Shown piece after piece: positions 38,038-45,854 of a stretch of 64,000 bases of DNA. Position 1 is the first letter of the stretch. Every line of letters starts with the position of its first letter. Source of the DNA: Thermotoga petrophila RKU-1 (GTDB lineage: Bacteria > Thermotogota > Thermotogae > Thermotogales > Thermotogaceae); assembly GCF_000016785.1 (NCBI RefSeq), contig NC_009486.1, forward strand, positions 806,001 through 870,000, given 5' to 3'. Position numbers and translations under genes: made by a program. The notes under the pieces were generated by a model. The model had not been told where the DNA came from and searched no databases. It saw only the letters and a list, made by a program, of their open reading frames with translations.

Positions 38038-39237
38038 ATGCCTTTTTACAAATACGTGGCCGTGGAGGGGAGCGGTAAGAAGATAACGGGGGTCATAGAG
38101 GCAGAGAACAAGTTGAAGGCGATATCGATCCTTTCTGAGAGAGGATTGATGGTTGTTCGTGTGGAGGAGAAAAAAAATCCAAAGAAAAGTTCGCCGTTCT
38201 TTCAGATTTCAATCAGCGAAATAGCCACGTTCTGCCGACAGCTTTCCATAATGATTTCGGCCGGTATAAGGATAAAAGAAGCGTTGAACATTCTGGCTCG
38301 TCAGACGGTTTTTTCAAAGCGTTTCAGAAAAGTTATACTGGAAATCGCTCTCAGCGTTGAAACAGGGGATTCTTTAGCAGAAGCTTTCAGAAAAACAGGT
38401 GTTTTCGACAGTGTTTTGATCAGTATGTTAGAAGCAGGAGAAGAAGGTGGAGTCCTTGACAGAACCCTGAAGAGGGCTGCGGACTTTTACGAAAGTATGA
38501 AAAGGCTTCAGGATGAGGTAAAATCCGCCATGGCTTATCCTCTCTTTGTTCTCTTCTTTGCAGTGGTAATCGTACTTGTGATCAGTTTTTACATACTCCC
38601 CAACCTCGTCAGGGCTTTTGGAACTTCTATTCCACTCTCACCCACGATTCAATCTCTTCTAAAAGCCAACGAATTTTTGAGTGAAAACTGGCCGTGGTTC
38701 TCGGTGCTTGTGGTGGGTATCATAGCCGGTATTTTCGTTTTGATGAAATCAAGATACGGTGTTTACATAAAGGAATATCTATCCTTTATTTTTCCACCTG
38801 TCAGGAAGCTCAGACAGAACATGGGGCTCGAACGATTCGCCAGAACACTGGGAATTCTTGTGGGAAGCGGTGTCAGAATAACCGATGCCATAAAGATGGC
38901 CGCTCAGGCTTCCAGTTCACCTTCCATTATCAGAAAAACCGAAGAAATGGTTCGGAAGATATCCGAAGGGAAAACCCTTCGAGATACTTTTGCAGAAAGT
39001 GGAGTTTTTCCACAGTTGATTTATGAGATGATCGGAACAGGAGAAGAGACTGGAAAAGTCGACGAAGTGATGGAAAGAGTGGCCGACTTCTACGAGGACA
39101 TAGTGAAAAACAGTGTGAAGCAGCTTGTTTCTCTGGTAGAGCCTCTATTGATAGCAGGTGTTGGTGGATTTGTGGCTTTCCTCGCGTATTCGATATACAC
39201 CACGGTATTTCAGCTTCAGAGGAGTATAGGTGGATGA
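38038..39237 (+). CDS. pilC: Type IV pilus/type II secretion inner-membrane platform protein (PilC/GspF)
   Basis: A 399-residue platform protein with two T2SSF repeats (about 63-185 and 265-388), each with ATFCRQLSIMISAGIRIKEAL or LERFARTLGILVGSGVRITDA, and three membrane helices near 165-190, 215-237 and 370-392. It converts motor ATPase movement into pilin assembly. The partner ATPase is not nearby. Confidence 0.95.
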   Translation: MPFYKYVAVEGSGKKITGVIEAENKLKAISILSERGLMVVRVEEKKNPKKSSPFFQISISEIATFCRQLSIMISAGIRIKEALNILARQTVFSKRFRKVILEIALSVETGDSLAEAFRKTGVFDSVLISMLEAGEEGGVLDRTLKRAADFYESMKRLQDEVKSAMAYPLFVLFFAVVIVLVISFYILPNLVRAFGTSIPLSPTIQSLLKANEFLSENWPWFSVLVVGIIAGIFVLMKSRYGVYIKEYLSFIFPPVRKLRQNMGLERFARTLGILVGSGVRITDAIKMAAQASSSPSIIRKTEEMVRKISEGKTLRDTFAESGVFPQLIYEMIGTGEETGKVDEVMERVADFYEDIVKNSVKQLVSLVEPLLIAGVGGFVAFLAYSIYTTVFQLQRSIGG

Positions 39238-39617
39238 ACATTATCGAAGTTCTCATAGTCATCGCTATTTCATTGATGATAATGGGATTTTTCATACCGA
39301 CTCTGATGTTCAAGCTGGGAAAAGATCATCAGGCTGTTGCTTTTAAGATCATGGCGATTAGAATGATTGAAAGAACATCCAGAAACGGACTTTTGATAAT
39401 AGAAGATAATGGGAAAATAGTAACTTACGATCCTCATAAGAATGAAAAGAAAATCTATGAATTTCCATTCACTTTTCTCTCCAAAACGGCTGTAGATGGA
39501 GAAGACATCACTTTCAAAAATGGGTTTGTCTCCACAGCAGGTACTGTCTATGGAGATGGGTGGTGGATCACCGTGGAACCAGTCACTGGCAGAATGAGAT
39601 TGTACGGGGGGAGATAG
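39234..39617 (+). CDS. Pseudopilin-like protein without leader peptide
   Basis: A 127-residue protein that begins MNIIEVLIVIAISLMIMGFF, the hydrophobic spine of a type IV pilin. If the initiator Met is position +1, Glu falls at the conserved +5. There is no upstream K/R-G cleavage site, and the upstream frame (EEYRW before the Met) adds none. The C-terminal part is a small beta domain (GDGWWITVEPVTGRMRLYGG). It overlaps pilC by 4 nt. Likely a minor pseudopilin that needs no processing. Confidence 0.8.
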   Translation: MNIIEVLIVIAISLMIMGFFIPTLMFKLGKDHQAVAFKIMAIRMIERTSRNGLLIIEDNGKIVTYDPHKNEKKIYEFPFTFLSKTAVDGEDITFKNGFVSTAGTVYGDGWWITVEPVTGRMRLYGGR

Positions 39618-39618
39618 C

Positions 39619-40599
39619 TTGCAGCTTTTCTACAATGATATCCTTTCCCTGAATTGGTGTTCACATTGTGTGGAGATATCCCGTGCGAGAATGAGAGGGT
39701 CCAAATTGAAGCTGTTAGATCACAAATTATCTCTTCTGGAAATAACAGATGAGGAGAAATCAGATGAAATTATACTGAATCTTTCAAGAAACGTGAAAAA
39801 AGATCTTGAAGATATAGTCGTTGCGAACGTGTCCATGGAGAACGTGCTGGTGATGAATATAAAAGTTCCTCCTACGTTGAACAGGCAAAATGCTGTAGAG
39901 TATGCCACGATGGAAATATCAAGAAATCTTGGTATACTCCCTGAACAGCTTGTTGTTGCTCCTCTGGATATTCACGGTGGTGAGGGATTGTTTTTTGTTT
40001 CAAAGGTTGACCAGGTGAAGAGTTTTGTAACAGACCTCATGAAAAAAGAGTTCCCAGAAACGGATGTGGTTATTCCCGATATCGTTAAATATCTTGAAGT
40101 GTTCGAATTCTATTTTGGGAAGCGTTTGAAAGGAACCAGTGTTCTTACGGTGATTTCTTTCTTGAGTGACTATTATTCCATAGTTGTTCTCGAGAACAAC
40201 CACTATCGTTCTCTCAGGTTGCTTTTTTCGATGTTCTGGGACTATATGGACATTGTGGTGGAGAACACGGGAGTTCAGCCCAAGGAATTGATGGAAGGAA
40301 CAGTGAATGTAGATCTTGACTTTTTACAACCATATTTTGGTGATTTCCTGATTGAACTCGACAGAGAAGTCAAAGTGTCTTTGGATGAAGTTAATCTGAG
40401 CAGGGTCGATCAGTTCTTCTACATCGTTGATCCCCCAATCCTTTCACCAGTTCTTTCTCAGACGCTGGAAAAGTTCGAGGGAGTAGCGTTGAAGCAAGGA
40501 ATCGTTCCTTCTTTTAAACCTGGTGTATCCTTAGGAACCCTTGGTTTGATGATAAGGGGGGGCAGGGAAATTGGAAAAGTTAAACATCTATCCGTTTAA
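39619..40599 (+). CDS. Divergent PilM/GspL-like protein
   Basis: A 326-residue cytoplasmic protein at the PilM position. The start VEISRARMRGSKLKLLDHKLSLLEI and later VSMENVLVMNIKVPPTLNRQNAVEYATMEISRNLGILPEQ resemble PilM/GspL, but the actin-type nucleotide motifs are not clear. Start is TTG 39619 after GGGGGGAG. It overlaps the next gene by 29 nt. Assignment rests on order: M-N-O-P before a secretin. Confidence 0.68.
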   Translation: MQLFYNDILSLNWCSHCVEISRARMRGSKLKLLDHKLSLLEITDEEKSDEIILNLSRNVKKDLEDIVVANVSMENVLVMNIKVPPTLNRQNAVEYATMEISRNLGILPEQLVVAPLDIHGGEGLFFVSKVDQVKSFVTDLMKKEFPETDVVIPDIVKYLEVFEFYFGKRLKGTSVLTVISFLSDYYSIVVLENNHYRSLRLLFSMFWDYMDIVVENTGVQPKELMEGTVNVDLDFLQPYFGDFLIELDREVKVSLDEVNLSRVDQFFYIVDPPILSPVLSQTLEKFEGVALKQGIVPSFKPGVSLGTLGLMIRGGREIGKVKHLSV

Positions 40600-41119
40600 G
40601 AAACGAAAGGTAAAGTTATCTACTTTTCTGGTACTGTTGGTCGTCATGTTGCTTCCTCCTGTTTCCTTTAATATCTACTTTAGTTATGCGAAAGAGCAAA
40701 TGATAGAAAGACTGCAAAGTGATTACTCCGAGGTTTTGAGAGCGTATTCTGTGAAGCTTTCGAAAGATTCTTCCAAAAATCTGGAGGAAATCTCCCGTGT
40801 GGAAAGCGTTTTTATGAACCAAATAAAATCATTGGAAGTGAGAGTCAATCAACTGAATGCTTTCCTTGACAAAAGGAAGAAATGGGAAGATTTTTTGAAG
40901 GTTTTGCTGAACATTTTTGAAGATCAAAATCGAACTCTGTGCTATCTTGATTTCTCTCAAGAAAAAGCCATTGTTGAGTTTTACGAAGTTTCCAAAAACG
41001 TTGTAAGTAGTACTTTTCAAAACTCGAATGTGAGTACAAGTCTCCTGTTTGAAGAAAAACTACCGGAAGGTTTTTATCTGAGAAAGTACAGGCTTGAGTA
41101 CAAGGCGGTGGGAAAGTGA
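40571..41119 (+). CDS. PilN-like inner-membrane assembly protein
   Basis: A 182-residue bitopic protein: N-terminal EKLNIYPFKKRK, a common PilN opening (xxINLLPxR), a membrane helix at about 17-38, a coiled coil (40-100), and a small periplasmic ferredoxin-like tail. TTG start. Pairs with the next gene in known systems. Confidence 0.72.
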   Translation: MEKLNIYPFKKRKVKLSTFLVLLVVMLLPPVSFNIYFSYAKEQMIERLQSDYSEVLRAYSVKLSKDSSKNLEEISRVESVFMNQIKSLEVRVNQLNAFLDKRKKWEDFLKVLLNIFEDQNRTLCYLDFSQEKAIVEFYEVSKNVVSSTFQNSNVSTSLLFEEKLPEGFYLRKYRLEYKAVGK

Positions 41120-41532
41120 GGGGAATAAACAGAAAGTTCGCTATCTGGTTCGCTGTTTTGACTCTCCTCGTGCTGGTCTTTGGACTTGTGGTGCCAGATT
41201 TTGTGATCTTCATGTCCAACACCAAAAAACTGGAACAGAAACTTCAAAACCTGGCACCTGCTTTCAAGGTTTTCACCTTGAAGCAAAGGGAATACGAGGA
41301 AATAATAAAGACGATCATGAGTACACCTGAGTTTCAATACAATTTCACCGAAAAAGAAATCAGTGTTGAAGAAGTTGAAGATCTCTTAAAGGAACTTGCT
41401 GAGACACGAAGGGTGACAGTGAAGACCTTGACCATTGATGCGAAAAGAGTTATACCGATCAATTTCTTCGGTACCCCAATATCTCAACCCAGTGTGAAGA
41501 TCACCCTTGAATTAGAAAGGGTGAAACAATGA
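41116..41532 (+). CDS. PilO-like inner-membrane assembly protein
   Basis: A 138-residue bitopic protein with a helix at about 9-32, a coiled coil (37-60) and a periplasmic domain ending VKITLELERVKQ. GTG start overlaps the previous stop. Identified by size, topology and place between PilN-like and PilP-like genes. Confidence 0.7.
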   Translation: MRGINRKFAIWFAVLTLLVLVFGLVVPDFVIFMSNTKKLEQKLQNLAPAFKVFTLKQREYEEIIKTIMSTPEFQYNFTEKEISVEEVEDLLKELAETRRVTVKTLTIDAKRVIPINFFGTPISQPSVKITLELERVKQ

Positions 41533-41990
41533 ACCGAAGAACGGTGATTCTTCTCGTAATTATGGGGGTTGTGTGGTCATTTGTTCTTTTCTATTTGTTC
41601 GCTGGCAACAGGGAGTCCGGAACTCTTCAGGTGGAAAGGCCAACGGATTTTACGGCGCTGGTGAACAAAATACAGATCAACCCCTTGCTCAAGAAAACGG
41701 CTCAGGAAAATCCTCCAGAATTCTCGTACAGGGTTTTCAATCCCGTGACGCTCAGCTTTGGGAAAGAGGCAGCCGACACTCTGATCGTGACGCTTCCTCC
41801 TCTGAAGTATCGATTCCTGGGTTTCATAAGAACGGTTGACGGGTTAAAAATATTCCTCTCCGATGGGGAAAAACTCTTTGAGGTGTCGGGCGAGAGCCCA
41901 TCTTTTGGAAATTATGTGGTCACCTACGTTTCGAGTCTCGGTGTTCTGGTTCTCGACGTGGAAAATGGTAGATTTTTTTCAATAAGATGA
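41529..41990 (+). CDS. PilP-like periplasmic linker protein
   Basis: A 153-residue protein with an N-terminal membrane anchor (6-24) rather than the lipobox of classical PilP, a Pro-rich linker and a beta domain (LKYRFLGFIRTVDGLKIFLSDGEKLFEVSGE) like the homology region of PilP/GspC. It would join the inner-membrane ring to the secretin. Overlaps the PilO-like gene by 4 nt. Confidence 0.72.
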   Translation: MNRRTVILLVIMGVVWSFVLFYLFAGNRESGTLQVERPTDFTALVNKIQINPLLKKTAQENPPEFSYRVFNPVTLSFGKEAADTLIVTLPPLKYRFLGFIRTVDGLKIFLSDGEKLFEVSGESPSFGNYVVTYVSSLGVLVLDVENGRFFSIR

Positions 41991-42005
41991 GGAGGGGTGG
42001 TATCT

Positions 42006-45000
42006 GTGAGGAGAATACTTCTTATTCTTGTCATGTTGATGTTCAGTGTGTTGTTCTCTGCAGAGCTCGTAGGGGTACTTCCTAAGATAGAGAATGATCG
42101 AGTGATCATAAAGATTCAGGTTTCTTCACCGGTTGAAGATGTTTCGGCAGAAATGAATTCTTCAAAGACTGTGTTCTCCATTTTCATGAAAGGGGTTCAA
42201 ATGAAGATCAGCAGATTCATGGTTCCCGTTGGTGTTGGTCCTGTTGAAGGTGTACGAGTGGTGAACGTTGGCAATGGAGTTATGGTGTCCGCGAGTCTGC
42301 TGGTTCCATTCCCAGGAAGCTACCGTTTAGAAGACAAGACGATAGTGATGGAATTTCCAAGAAGTAAGGAAAGAATCGATGTGTCCTTTGAAAACATGCC
42401 TTTTGAAGATATGGTAAAGTACCTCTCTGAGAGATTGAATCTCAACGTAATCGTTTCAGATAGTGTCAAAAGTGCAACAACGAGTTTGAAACTGAACGAT
42501 GTCACACCCGAAGATGCGCTGAGAGACCTTCTCGTTACATTCGGAGAAGTTGCCTACGCTTATTTTCCGGATGGGACTATGTTCATAGGAAAATACGAAG
42601 AAGTATCCGGAAGGTTTCAGAGATTCTGGGGTATATACAGAGTAGAGAATCAAACAGTTGCCGACAGGATAAAGAGTCTCATTTCTCAGGAAGCCATGAT
42701 AGACTACCTTCCGTCAAAATCTGTTCTCTTCGTCTATGGAACTTCGGAAGAACATGACCTCGTGGCGAGCCTTCTTTCTGTTTCTCCACCCCTTCAGCAA
42801 AAAGAAGTTTCCTTCTCGGTAGATTCAGCGAGAGTGGAAGAACTCCTGACCGCTCTCAAAAGTGTGTATCAGTTCGAGTATCACCTCTTAAAGCCGGTAT
42901 CCAGGGTGATTCTTGTGGGAGATTCTGAGACGATTTCGAAAGTGGAAAGATATATCAAGATTTTGGAAACTCGCGAGCAGGTGTCTGTAGAAGAACAGGT
43001 CCAGATTCCAGCTAAAAAATTCGTCTTTTATGCTTACGATCCAGAATCCGCTGCTTCGCTTATCACTTTACTCCTCGGAATAGATGCTCAGTCTTTCAAG
43101 GACATGAATCTGGTGGTATGTCAGGTGCCGATAGACAGAGAGCAGGAATTGGTTGATTTCATCGCGGAAAACAACCTGGAGCTCGGTGAGATGTTCTATC
43201 TGGATATCAAAAAAGGTGAGGAAAACTTTCTCAAAGAAACGATACAGTTTCTTGGAGTACCAGATTCGAGGCTGAGGTTTCTCAACATCGACGGTGAGAA
43301 TGTAAAAGTCGGTATCTCAGTTCCAAAAGCGGTCTATGAGAAAATATCTCCCATTCTGAAAAAAATGTTGTCACTCAGGAGAAAGAATTTCATCGTGAAA
43401 AGTGTGGAATTGAAAAAGGAGATTCAGCAGGAAATGTTAGACGCGATAACGAGAATGTACGGGGTTTCTATAGAAAAAATAGGAAACTTCCTCTTCATAG
43501 AGGGAGCCAATGGTTCCGTTGAAAACGCTGAAGAACAACTGGAGAAACTCCAGAGTGAACACACACAATTTCTGAAAATTACCTTAAAAGCTGAAAATGT
43601 GGAAGATTTGAAGAGATTCATGAAGGAAAAGTACGGTGTTGAATTCGAGTACTTTTCTTCTCTGAAAGTGGCAATGCTGAGTGGAAAGGAAGAAGAAAGC
43701 GTTCAGAAAGCTGCTGAAGAATTGCAGTTAATTTCTTCGGAGGAAAGGATCATAAGGTTCGTGAAAAAATCCGAGAATGTACCGATCGATAAAGCGAAAA
43801 GCGTTGTTTCACAACTCTACAGTGTATCCATAGAAGAGTTAGGGAATGAGCTTGTCGTCATCGGTGAAAGAGAAGAAGTCGAAAAAGCTGCTGATCTTCT
43901 TCAGAAAATTTTCTCTTCCGAAGTAGAGATCTCGCGTGACTTTGTGAAGTTGCCCAGCTGGATTGATGAACAAGAGAAACTCCTCGAAGTTGTGAAAAAC
44001 AGCGCCGGGATCACTTACGAAATACTGGACGGAGTAGTTTACTTTGAAGGGACAAAGGAGAATGTCGAAAAGGCAAAGGAACTCTTCTCAGACATAGTGG
44101 AAAAACTCGGAGAAGTACGCAAAGAAGAGAAAGTGGAATTCCTCGAAGTGGATTCTTCCTTCCCTGTTGACGAATTTATAAATCTCTCTAGCAAACTGTA
44201 TCCGGATGCTACCTGTTTCAGTCTCGATCAATTGGGTCTTCTGGTTCTCAAGGGATCTTCAGAAGCGGTCGAAGATCTTTCGAACATGTATCGTTCTTTC
44301 TTCGAGAGATACCAAAAGATAGTGAAAGAAAACGTGTTCGATCGACTCATGCTAGAGGTTCCGAGCGGTTTTTCCTTCGAGGAATTCAAGACCTTCCTGG
44401 AAGTTCTCGTTCCAGAAGTCAAACAGGTTGTCTATCTTGACAAATTGAACTTGCTCTTGGTGGAAGTTCCTGTTTCACAATCGGAAAGAGTGAGTAGTCT
44501 ACTCGATACGTTCTTGAAAAAAGAAGAAGCTGTATCGGAAAAGAAAGCGGTGAAAAGCGTCACCATACCTTCCGGTGTGAACCCTGACGAACTTTCTTCT
44601 TACTTGAAGAAACTCCTCAGAAATGTCGAGATCACGGTCTTTCCGAACATGGGCCAGATGATCGTAGAGGGACCAGAAAACGAGGTGGAAAAAGCTGTAG
44701 AACTCGTAGAAGCGGAAAAAGAAAAGATCGTTTTGAAGGAAAAGAAAGATTACGTAAAGGTTTCTGATGGTAAGCTGACTATAAACGCAGAGGATGTTTC
44801 GCTTTACGATCTTCTCGCAGAAATCGCCAGTGAACTTGGAATTTCGGTGATGTTTGTTTCCATTCCTTCGGAAAAGATCACGATGAAGGCAGATGATATC
44901 ACTTGGGAAAAGTTCGTGGATCTGATCTCTCAGAACTATGGTTATTTGTTTGACAACAAAAGCGGTGTTTACGTTCTCTCAAAACCCAAACAGGATCTTG

Positions 45001-45854
45001 CAAGGCGTTACGTTTACGACGTGCCGCACAATTTCGATCAAATAAAGGCTTTGATCGAATTCTACGGAGGAACGGTTTATGTGGATTCTCTGAACAACTT
45101 CATGGTGGTAACGGGAATTTCTGAGACGATAAAGAAAGAACTGGACAATATCATAGAAAAATTGAAAAAGCCGACGAAACAGATAGAGATATCCGCGAAG
45201 ATAGTGGATAGATCTTTGATTGACAGACTAAGCAAAGAAGCCGGTCTCGAATTGACGGGAGGGAATGTGAATGTGGGGTCCTCTGGTGCAGGGATATCTT
45301 TCTCTGTGACCGACTACCTTGATTTCGAAAAGATCTTTGGAGGAATTTTGAACAGCAATCTTTCTCTCCAGTTCTCAGATCAAAAGACAAACACCCTCGA
45401 TGACATTCTTGCGAGTCCCAGAATCGTCACCACCAGTGGAAAAGAGGCGAGAATACTGATAGGTGACAGAATACCGTACGTTACGGACACCAATGGAGAC
45501 GGGACTCCGGAAGTGCAATTCCTCGAGACCGGTATAGAACTCAACATCACACCGTTTGTACGAAGTGACGACACTATAGAGCTCGATCTCTTTGTGAAGG
45601 CTAGCGAACCTGGAAACTACATAAATGAAGTGCCTGGAGAGAGAACACGAGAGACTCAGACACACCTCATCGTGAAGAACGGAAGTACCATAACGATAGG
45701 AGGTCTGATCAGGGAAGTAACGAATGTAACAGAGAGCAAACTACCTTTCCTCGGAGATTTACCGGTGATAGGACAGTTCTTCAGAACAAAGTCCGAAAAT
45801 AAGGAAAAACGAGATCTCATCATATTCCTCACCGTAAGGGTGGTGGAACCATGA
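42006..45854 (+). CDS. Giant secretin (PilQ/GspD family) with many repeated N-domains
   Basis: A 1282-residue outer-membrane channel protein. Residues 1-20 are a signal peptide, 20-120 a beta domain, 124-195 an N0/STN domain. Then come eleven N1-like modules of about 64 residues (206-903), each ending in a hydrophobic strand plus G-x4-V-x2-A-x2-L helix (e.g. LVVIGEREEVEKAADLLQKI). A second N0-like domain lies at 915-995, one more N1 module at 1000-1055, and the secretin barrel at 1058-1282 with GIELNITPFV and PFLGDLPVIGQFF. Typical secretins have 400-800 residues. GTG 42006 gives the best signal peptide; GTG 41997 lies inside the ribosome-binding site. Confidence 0.92.
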   Translation: MRRILLILVMLMFSVLFSAELVGVLPKIENDRVIIKIQVSSPVEDVSAEMNSSKTVFSIFMKGVQMKISRFMVPVGVGPVEGVRVVNVGNGVMVSASLLVPFPGSYRLEDKTIVMEFPRSKERIDVSFENMPFEDMVKYLSERLNLNVIVSDSVKSATTSLKLNDVTPEDALRDLLVTFGEVAYAYFPDGTMFIGKYEEVSGRFQRFWGIYRVENQTVADRIKSLISQEAMIDYLPSKSVLFVYGTSEEHDLVASLLSVSPPLQQKEVSFSVDSARVEELLTALKSVYQFEYHLLKPVSRVILVGDSETISKVERYIKILETREQVSVEEQVQIPAKKFVFYAYDPESAASLITLLLGIDAQSFKDMNLVVCQVPIDREQELVDFIAENNLELGEMFYLDIKKGEENFLKETIQFLGVPDSRLRFLNIDGENVKVGISVPKAVYEKISPILKKMLSLRRKNFIVKSVELKKEIQQEMLDAITRMYGVSIEKIGNFLFIEGANGSVENAEEQLEKLQSEHTQFLKITLKAENVEDLKRFMKEKYGVEFEYFSSLKVAMLSGKEEESVQKAAEELQLISSEERIIRFVKKSENVPIDKAKSVVSQLYSVSIEELGNELVVIGEREEVEKAADLLQKIFSSEVEISRDFVKLPSWIDEQEKLLEVVKNSAGITYEILDGVVYFEGTKENVEKAKELFSDIVEKLGEVRKEEKVEFLEVDSSFPVDEFINLSSKLYPDATCFSLDQLGLLVLKGSSEAVEDLSNMYRSFFERYQKIVKENVFDRLMLEVPSGFSFEEFKTFLEVLVPEVKQVVYLDKLNLLLVEVPVSQSERVSSLLDTFLKKEEAVSEKKAVKSVTIPSGVNPDELSSYLKKLLRNVEITVFPNMGQMIVEGPENEVEKAVELVEAEKEKIVLKEKKDYVKVSDGKLTINAEDVSLYDLLAEIASELGISVMFVSIPSEKITMKADDITWEKFVDLISQNYGYLFDNKSGVYVLSKPKQDLARRYVYDVPHNFDQIKALIEFYGGTVYVDSLNNFMVVTGISETIKKELDNIIEKLKKPTKQIEISAKIVDRSLIDRLSKEAGLELTGGNVNVGSSGAGISFSVTDYLDFEKIFGGILNSNLSLQFSDQKTNTLDDILASPRIVTTSGKEARILIGDRIPYVTDTNGDGTPEVQFLETGIELNITPFVRSDDTIELDLFVKASEPGNYINEVPGERTRETQTHLIVKNGSTITIGGLIREVTNVTESKLPFLGDLPVIGQFFRTKSENKEKRDLIIFLTVRVVEP

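Follow-up and report, generated by a model that had tools for sequence, protein, structure and literature searches.

The window considered in the present work, i.e., the whole stretch of 64,000 nucleotides of Thermotoga petrophila RKU-1 that was analysed, harbors on its forward strand a gene (42006..45854, GTG start) coding for a PilQ-type secretin of 1282 residues. This protein is probably the secretin of a type IV pilus/DNA-uptake machine, the periplasmic part of which has been lengthened by the addition of N1-type ring modules and fitted to the gap of the envelope. Throughout the Thermotogota, its length varies together with that of the protein that holds the outer membrane away from the cell wall; this co-variation suggests that the secretin became longer in order to cross an envelope of unusual width.

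Domain Architecture of the Secretin

The open reading frame spans positions 41997-45854 (forward strand) and has three in-frame GTG codons between 41997 and 42006. The third one (42006) has the best-placed ribosome-binding site, GAGGAGG, located about 10 nt 5' of it, and is thus a better start than the GTG at 41997. The Pfam search retrieved the Secretin domain (PF00263) at residues 1131-1284 (E 1.8e-43; 148.5 bits versus a cut-off of 27.5), Secretin_N in three stretches, and STN/FecR_C at residues 129-179; these residue numbers, as well as those of the structural model, count from 41997, and the subtraction of 3 gives the numbering from 42006. The frame, the ribosome-binding site, and the Pfam match bear out the gene and the 1282-residue secretin proposed in the initial annotation of this DNA.

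The entire region preceding the barrel (residues 24-1075, numbered from 41997) was modelled with AlphaFold2 using 17 aligned Thermotogota sequences (mean pLDDT 74). According to the model, a beta domain comes first and is followed by an N0-like domain, by eleven beta-alpha-beta-beta-alpha modules, and then, ahead of the barrel, by another N0-like domain and the twelfth module, all encoded on the forward strand. The N-terminal domain (42072..42359) is an all-beta sandwich conserved in the Thermotogota and occupies the place of the PilQ AMIN domains, for which no Pfam match was found in the 17 members tested. It is followed by the first N0-like domain (42375..42593), with a beta-alpha-beta-beta-alpha-beta-beta topology in the model and matches to STN, FecR_C, and the GspD N0. 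The eleven N1-like modules (42627..44738) are located at 42627-42776, 42795-42974, 43011-43169, 43191-43388, 43389-43556, and 43560-43739 (modules 1-6) and at 43749-43913, 43932-44108, 44127-44333, 44337-44537, and 44544-44738 (modules 7-11). Then come the second N0 (44754..44981), the barrel-proximal N1 module (45009..45167), across which the PilQ and HofQ matches extend, and the secretin barrel itself (45387..45848), recognized by PF00263.

The best PDB matches of this model in Foldseek were the PilQ proteins of N. meningitidis and M. xanthus together with GspD and XcpQ N domains. A profile built from the modules recovered 10 of the 12 modules of the Thermotoga secretin and 572 copies in 54 Thermotogota secretins (E<0.1), and none in shuffled copies. 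No DNA-level tandem repeats were found by TRF in the Thermotoga gene, which implies that the modules are old. Hence, where about twelve N1-like modules had been counted, the model contains exactly twelve, and the KH-like N1 fold, for which residues 206-903 had been set as a test, is recognizable both in the model and in its structural matches. Likewise, the two N0 domains claimed at 124-195 and 915-995 were placed at 124-196 and 917-992 (numbering from 42006). The claim that at least nine repeats end in G-x4-V-x2-A-x2-L did not hold: the strict motif occurs only three times (0.01 expected in shuffles), and a count of nine requires relaxing the residues, which makes the motif unspecific.

The Two N0 Domains and the PilQ Core

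The profile built on the barrel-side N0 retrieved PilQ N0 structures as top matches (N. meningitidis 4ar0, 4.8e-9; N. meningitidis PilQ, 5.9e-8; HofQ, 6.8e-5), while GspD was not matched. Since PilQ N0s come first, the barrel, the adjoining N1 module, and this N0 are, judging from their sequence, an ordinary PilQ core, and the extension consists of the N-terminal N0 plus the eleven modules. The idea that the N0 near the barrel is an anomaly, hard to explain in standard models, was accordingly discarded: it is the usual PilQ N0, whereas the additional copy is the one at the N terminus. This latter, which sits after the N-terminal beta domain, is homologous to the barrel-side N0 (HHalign probability 92%), and both copies were found in nearly all of the full-length long Thermotogota secretins examined. 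In addition, three, and up to four, tandem N0-like domains precede the barrel in family f3 and genus g5 (secretins with at least three: L039, L043, L044, L045, L051, L053, L054, L059-L063, L077, L078, and L085).

In Neisseria, the PilQ N0 is bound by PilP (PMC3441751). With only about 153 residues, the PilP-like protein of Thermotoga would be able to contact just the N0 on the cell side of the stack, so that the N-terminal copy is the likely (predicted) docking site.

The N0-N1-barrel core and, with PilM/N/O/P assigned by position, the operon order are shared with the PilQ proteins of Neisseria, Pseudomonas, and Vibrio (AMIN-N0-N1-barrel); in contrast to these, the beta domain of the Thermotoga protein is separated from the core by an additional N0 and eleven N1 modules, and no AMIN domain is recognizable by sequence. 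GspD (N0-N1-N2-N3-barrel) also has an N0 followed by several N1-type modules, and its N domains, with those of XcpQ, are among the Foldseek matches, but it has three such modules, whereas Thermotoga has eleven and then a second N0-N1, and the GspD model scores below its cut-off. A precedent is Thermus thermophilus PilQ, a protein of 757 aa forming six stacked rings and a 35 nm tube in a periplasm of about 70 nm (PMC5745081, PMC4463427), which upholds the earlier mention of this protein as a precedent for a long N-domain stack. Both have an extended series of beta-alpha-beta-beta-alpha domains and belong to bacteria with a wide periplasm, the Thermotoga protein being, like that of Thermus, a probable pilus/DNA-uptake secretin, and the Thermotoga protein, with its 12 N1 and 2 N0, exceeds the four stack-type N domains above which a secretin counts as Thermus-like and extended. 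The Thermus protein, however, has six rings, a single N0, and a long PilP homologue, PilW (292 aa, about 60% longer, and said to make up the remaining width; PMC13039148), whereas in Thermotoga 14 rings are predicted, each end of the stack carries an N0, and the PilP-like protein has about 150 aa. Finally, Deinococcus radiodurans PilQ (DR_0774, 8co1), from a deep-branching host with a wide periplasm, is among the structural matches of the Thermotoga model, but with its approximately 740 aa it has far fewer modules.

Gene Organization and Identity of the Machine

The secretin gene is the last of a series recurring in distant Thermotogota families and coding, on the forward strand, for a PilC/GspF inner-membrane platform protein (38038..39237; T2SSF 2.8e-60, TIGR02120 3.5e-81), a pseudopilin/minor-pilin-like protein (39234..39617; weak N_methyl, ComGE, and GspG matches, and the same slot in other operons), a PilM/GspL-like protein (39619..40599; no Pfam match, conserved slot of ~320-340 aa), PilN-like (40571..41119; conserved slot of ~180-200 aa) and PilO-like (41116..41532; conserved slot of ~130-215 aa) proteins with one N-terminal TM segment each, and a PilP/GspC-like protein with a TM segment and a C-terminal beta domain (41529..41990; conserved slot of ~146-213 aa, which directly precedes the secretin in the inspected operons). 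Position, size, and the single TM segment, rather than family matches, were the basis for assigning the PilM-, PilN-, PilO-, and PilP-like proteins. The Thermotoga genome also harbors a PilB-type ATPase (frame of 581 aa) and a PilT-type ATPase (367 aa).

The gene is the equivalent of TM0088, which appears as pilQ in a list of competence genes; this gene set is also present in two strains reported to be naturally transformable, Thermotoga sp. RQ2 and RQ7 (PMC5637354). That annotation was all that was found on long Thermotogota secretins in the open-access literature.

A different assignment, in which the protein is mainly the secretin of a type II secretion system exporting toga-bound hydrolases and the stack is an export vestibule rather than part of a pilus/competence pore, is unlikely. 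Two N0 and many N1 modules do recall GspD (N0-N3), and the GspF-type and GspC/L/M-like partners would suit either system; moreover, the GspD model TIGR02517 matches with 141.5 bits (curated cut-off 351.35). The PilQ model TIGR02515, on the other hand, scores higher (181.5 bits) and is the best-scoring NCBIfam model, although it too remains below its curated cut-off (284.35). The PilQ affinity of the barrel-proximal N0, the PilT-type ATPase, and the transformability of strains RQ2 and RQ7 also argue for the pilus/DNA-uptake assignment.

Length Variation across the Thermotogota

A secretin was found in 96 of 103 Thermotogota genomes, and the long secretins have between about 630 and 4,575 residues. 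The giant ones (2,635-4,575 aa) all belong to family f9 (Kosmotogaceae/Mesotoga-type): L037 has 2,635 aa (genome G019), L032, L034, L035, and L036, from four genomes, have 3,900-3,921 aa, and L033 has 4,575 aa (genome G023, one contig; core matching a Mesotoga record at 80% and a Kosmotogaceae record at 96%). PilB-type ATPases are present also in the genomes of giant secretins. Outside the Thermotogota, the longest secretin frame among the matches listed has 1369 aa (115 genomes, phylum of a Verrucomicrobia MAG).

The giants consist of N1-like modules throughout. When 1,161 residues of the largest one (4,575 aa) were modelled, they formed about seventeen modules in a row, of 66 residues each, the best structural match of which is Deinococcus radiodurans PilQ DR_0774 (8co1); in the whole protein, the profile detected 48 modules, and about 60 would fit. 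Two giants of 3,900 codons align gaplessly, with a dN/dS of 0.10 that is low in every window of the alignment, and the Thermotoga gene pair gave a dN/dS of 0.08. The gapless alignment and the low dN/dS indicate that length has been kept by selection over these distances. L033 contains recent, near-identical duplications of four modules (88-90% identity, offset of 268 aa, tiled windows), which show how length can change; no DNA tandem repeats were found in it by TRF, though its protein modules repeat.

Other variants were observed. In G021 (L129:8280-9751), a one-contig Kosmotogaceae genome, the secretin gene is broken, with a 982-bp segment inverted between perfect 245-bp direct repeats; when the segment is flipped in silico, the frame grows from 1374 to 1729 aa, but the two halves stay unjoined. 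The break is likely a misassembly or a rearrangement, and G021 was left out of the length correlation. Family f10 (L069-L071, L082-L084) has short, divergent secretins (~630-910 aa), short spacers, and PilP-like proteins of ~193-208 aa; in the three f10 genomes searched (G039, G049, and G053), no PilB-size ATPase frame was found, only PilT-size ones. A second, minimal secretin devoid of the stack (387 aa) is encoded on the reverse strand of L072 (6936-8099; genome position ~1625.9 kb), in a cluster that also codes for a protein of 544 aa and for two secreted proteins of 215-225 aa similar to each other; throughout the phylum, this short secretin keeps a constant length (369-434 aa).

Secretin Length and the Outer-Membrane Spacer

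In Thermotoga, Omp-alpha (OmpA1) is attached to the wall by an N-terminal SLH domain, continues in a coiled coil of 316 residues, and ends in a C-terminal membrane anchor; it holds the toga about 50 nm away (PMC3387000; PMC9388160). If PilQ spans the same gap as Omp-alpha, the two should vary in length in parallel. Frames with SLH were thus collected from the phylum as spacers, leaving out those of ~1000 aa, and visual inspection of a sample showed SLH plus coiled coil; spacer length served as a proxy for gap width, and lengths are ORF lengths. The test was devised, and the spacer set chosen, after the lengths had been seen.

Secretin and spacer length are correlated over 28 genera (Spearman 0.80, p 3e-7), and this also without f9 (0.76); for within-family residuals, the Spearman coefficient is 0.93. 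Independent contrasts on the barrel tree (one genome per genus) gave r 0.65 (p 6e-4), with 20 of 23 contrasts having the same sign, and r 0.69 without f9; choosing the shortest, the longest, or the first spacer gave r 0.53-0.70, with 18-22 of 23 of the same sign. The comparison of module number with toga size over the Thermotogota, proposed in the initial annotation, is therefore positive when spacer length is used as the proxy. PilN, PilO, and PilP lengths showed no relation with the spacer (contrast r -0.21 to -0.03), nor did the length of the short paralogous secretin show any trend. Genome size is unrelated to spacer length and weakly correlated with secretin length (contrast r 0.45).

It is improbable that module number merely drifts by neutral duplication and that the correlation reflects shared ancestry or chance. 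The recent duplications in the largest gene are what such drift would leave, and the spacer set was picked post hoc, with lengths taken from ORFs; nevertheless, the correlation withstands phylogenetic contrasts and the removal of the Kosmotogaceae, the negative controls are flat, and the genes are under strong purifying selection without indels.

Predicted Tube Length and Proposed Arrangement

Guided by Thermus PilQ, we assumed a height of 2.5-3.5 nm for each ring and of 9 nm for the barrel. The predicted Thermotoga stack (14 rings plus barrel) would thus measure 45-59 nm, versus 47 nm for the coiled coil, and in most genera stack and spacer differ by no more than about a third to a half. The Kosmotogaceae giants, with 35-65 rings and ~97-236 nm versus spacers of 53-80 nm, overshoot about two- to threefold, which may be due to wider gaps, to a non-straight stack, or to another role of the modules. 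This overshoot counts against a bridging tube, as do the sub-cut-off TIGR02515 score, the assignment of PilM/N/O/P by position only, and the fact that Deinococcus and Thermus cope with wide periplasms using PilQ proteins of ~740-757 aa.

According to another possible scenario, the extra modules would be a flexible or folded-back KH-like chain (a tether or a polysaccharide-binding array) forming no long tube. The models are indeed beads-like, with a low overall pTM (0.30-0.35), N0 and N1 lack a fixed mutual orientation in Neisseria PilQ fragments (PMC3441751), and straight giants would exceed their gap. We consider this scenario quite unlikely, given that N1 modules form rings in solved secretins and in the six-ring Thermus PilQ, that conservation is gapless over 3,900 codons, and that length tracks the spacer.

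In the bridging arrangement that we favor, the C-terminal barrel would sit in the outer membrane (toga), with the canonical N0-N1 pair beneath it, and the eleven further N1 modules would stack as rings towards the cell body. The stack would end in the N-terminal N0, able to dock a short inner-membrane PilP-like protein, and the beta domain would lie at its end, where PilQ usually binds peptidoglycan. The distance between the outer membrane and the cell wall would set the module number, and SLH/coiled-coil rods of the Omp-alpha type would fix it (~50 nm in Thermotoga).

On the whole, the observation reported in the initial annotation was confirmed, and its interpretation stands in part, i.e., for the modules, the N0 domains, and the tube of tens of nanometres, which is the likeliest reading, with ring stacking a predicted feature. 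Besides the oddity of the second N0 and the nine strict motifs, the fit to the ballooning toga was lost: the computed length suits the regular gap of ~50 nm set by Omp-alpha and not the much larger polar balloon. A bolder proposal, that Thermotogota secretins are molecular rulers co-evolving with the Omp-alpha spacer, with 55-65 rings and well over 100 nm in Mesotoga-type organisms, the longest secretin tubes known, may hold, although we lean somewhat against it.

Biological Significance

A PilQ with an extended stack is already known; what is unusual here is the phylum-wide length series. The Thermotogota appear to lengthen PilQ itself, whereas Thermus is said to lengthen the flexible PilP homologue. 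With as many as 4,575 residues, six times the size of Thermus PilQ, such secretins would be exceptional among outer-membrane channels. Moreover, the secretin appears to gain length in countable modules as an independent spacer protein becomes longer, so that the width of the envelope would be predictable from sequence through the number of modules; this, in turn, bears on how a two-membrane machine handles envelopes of different width.
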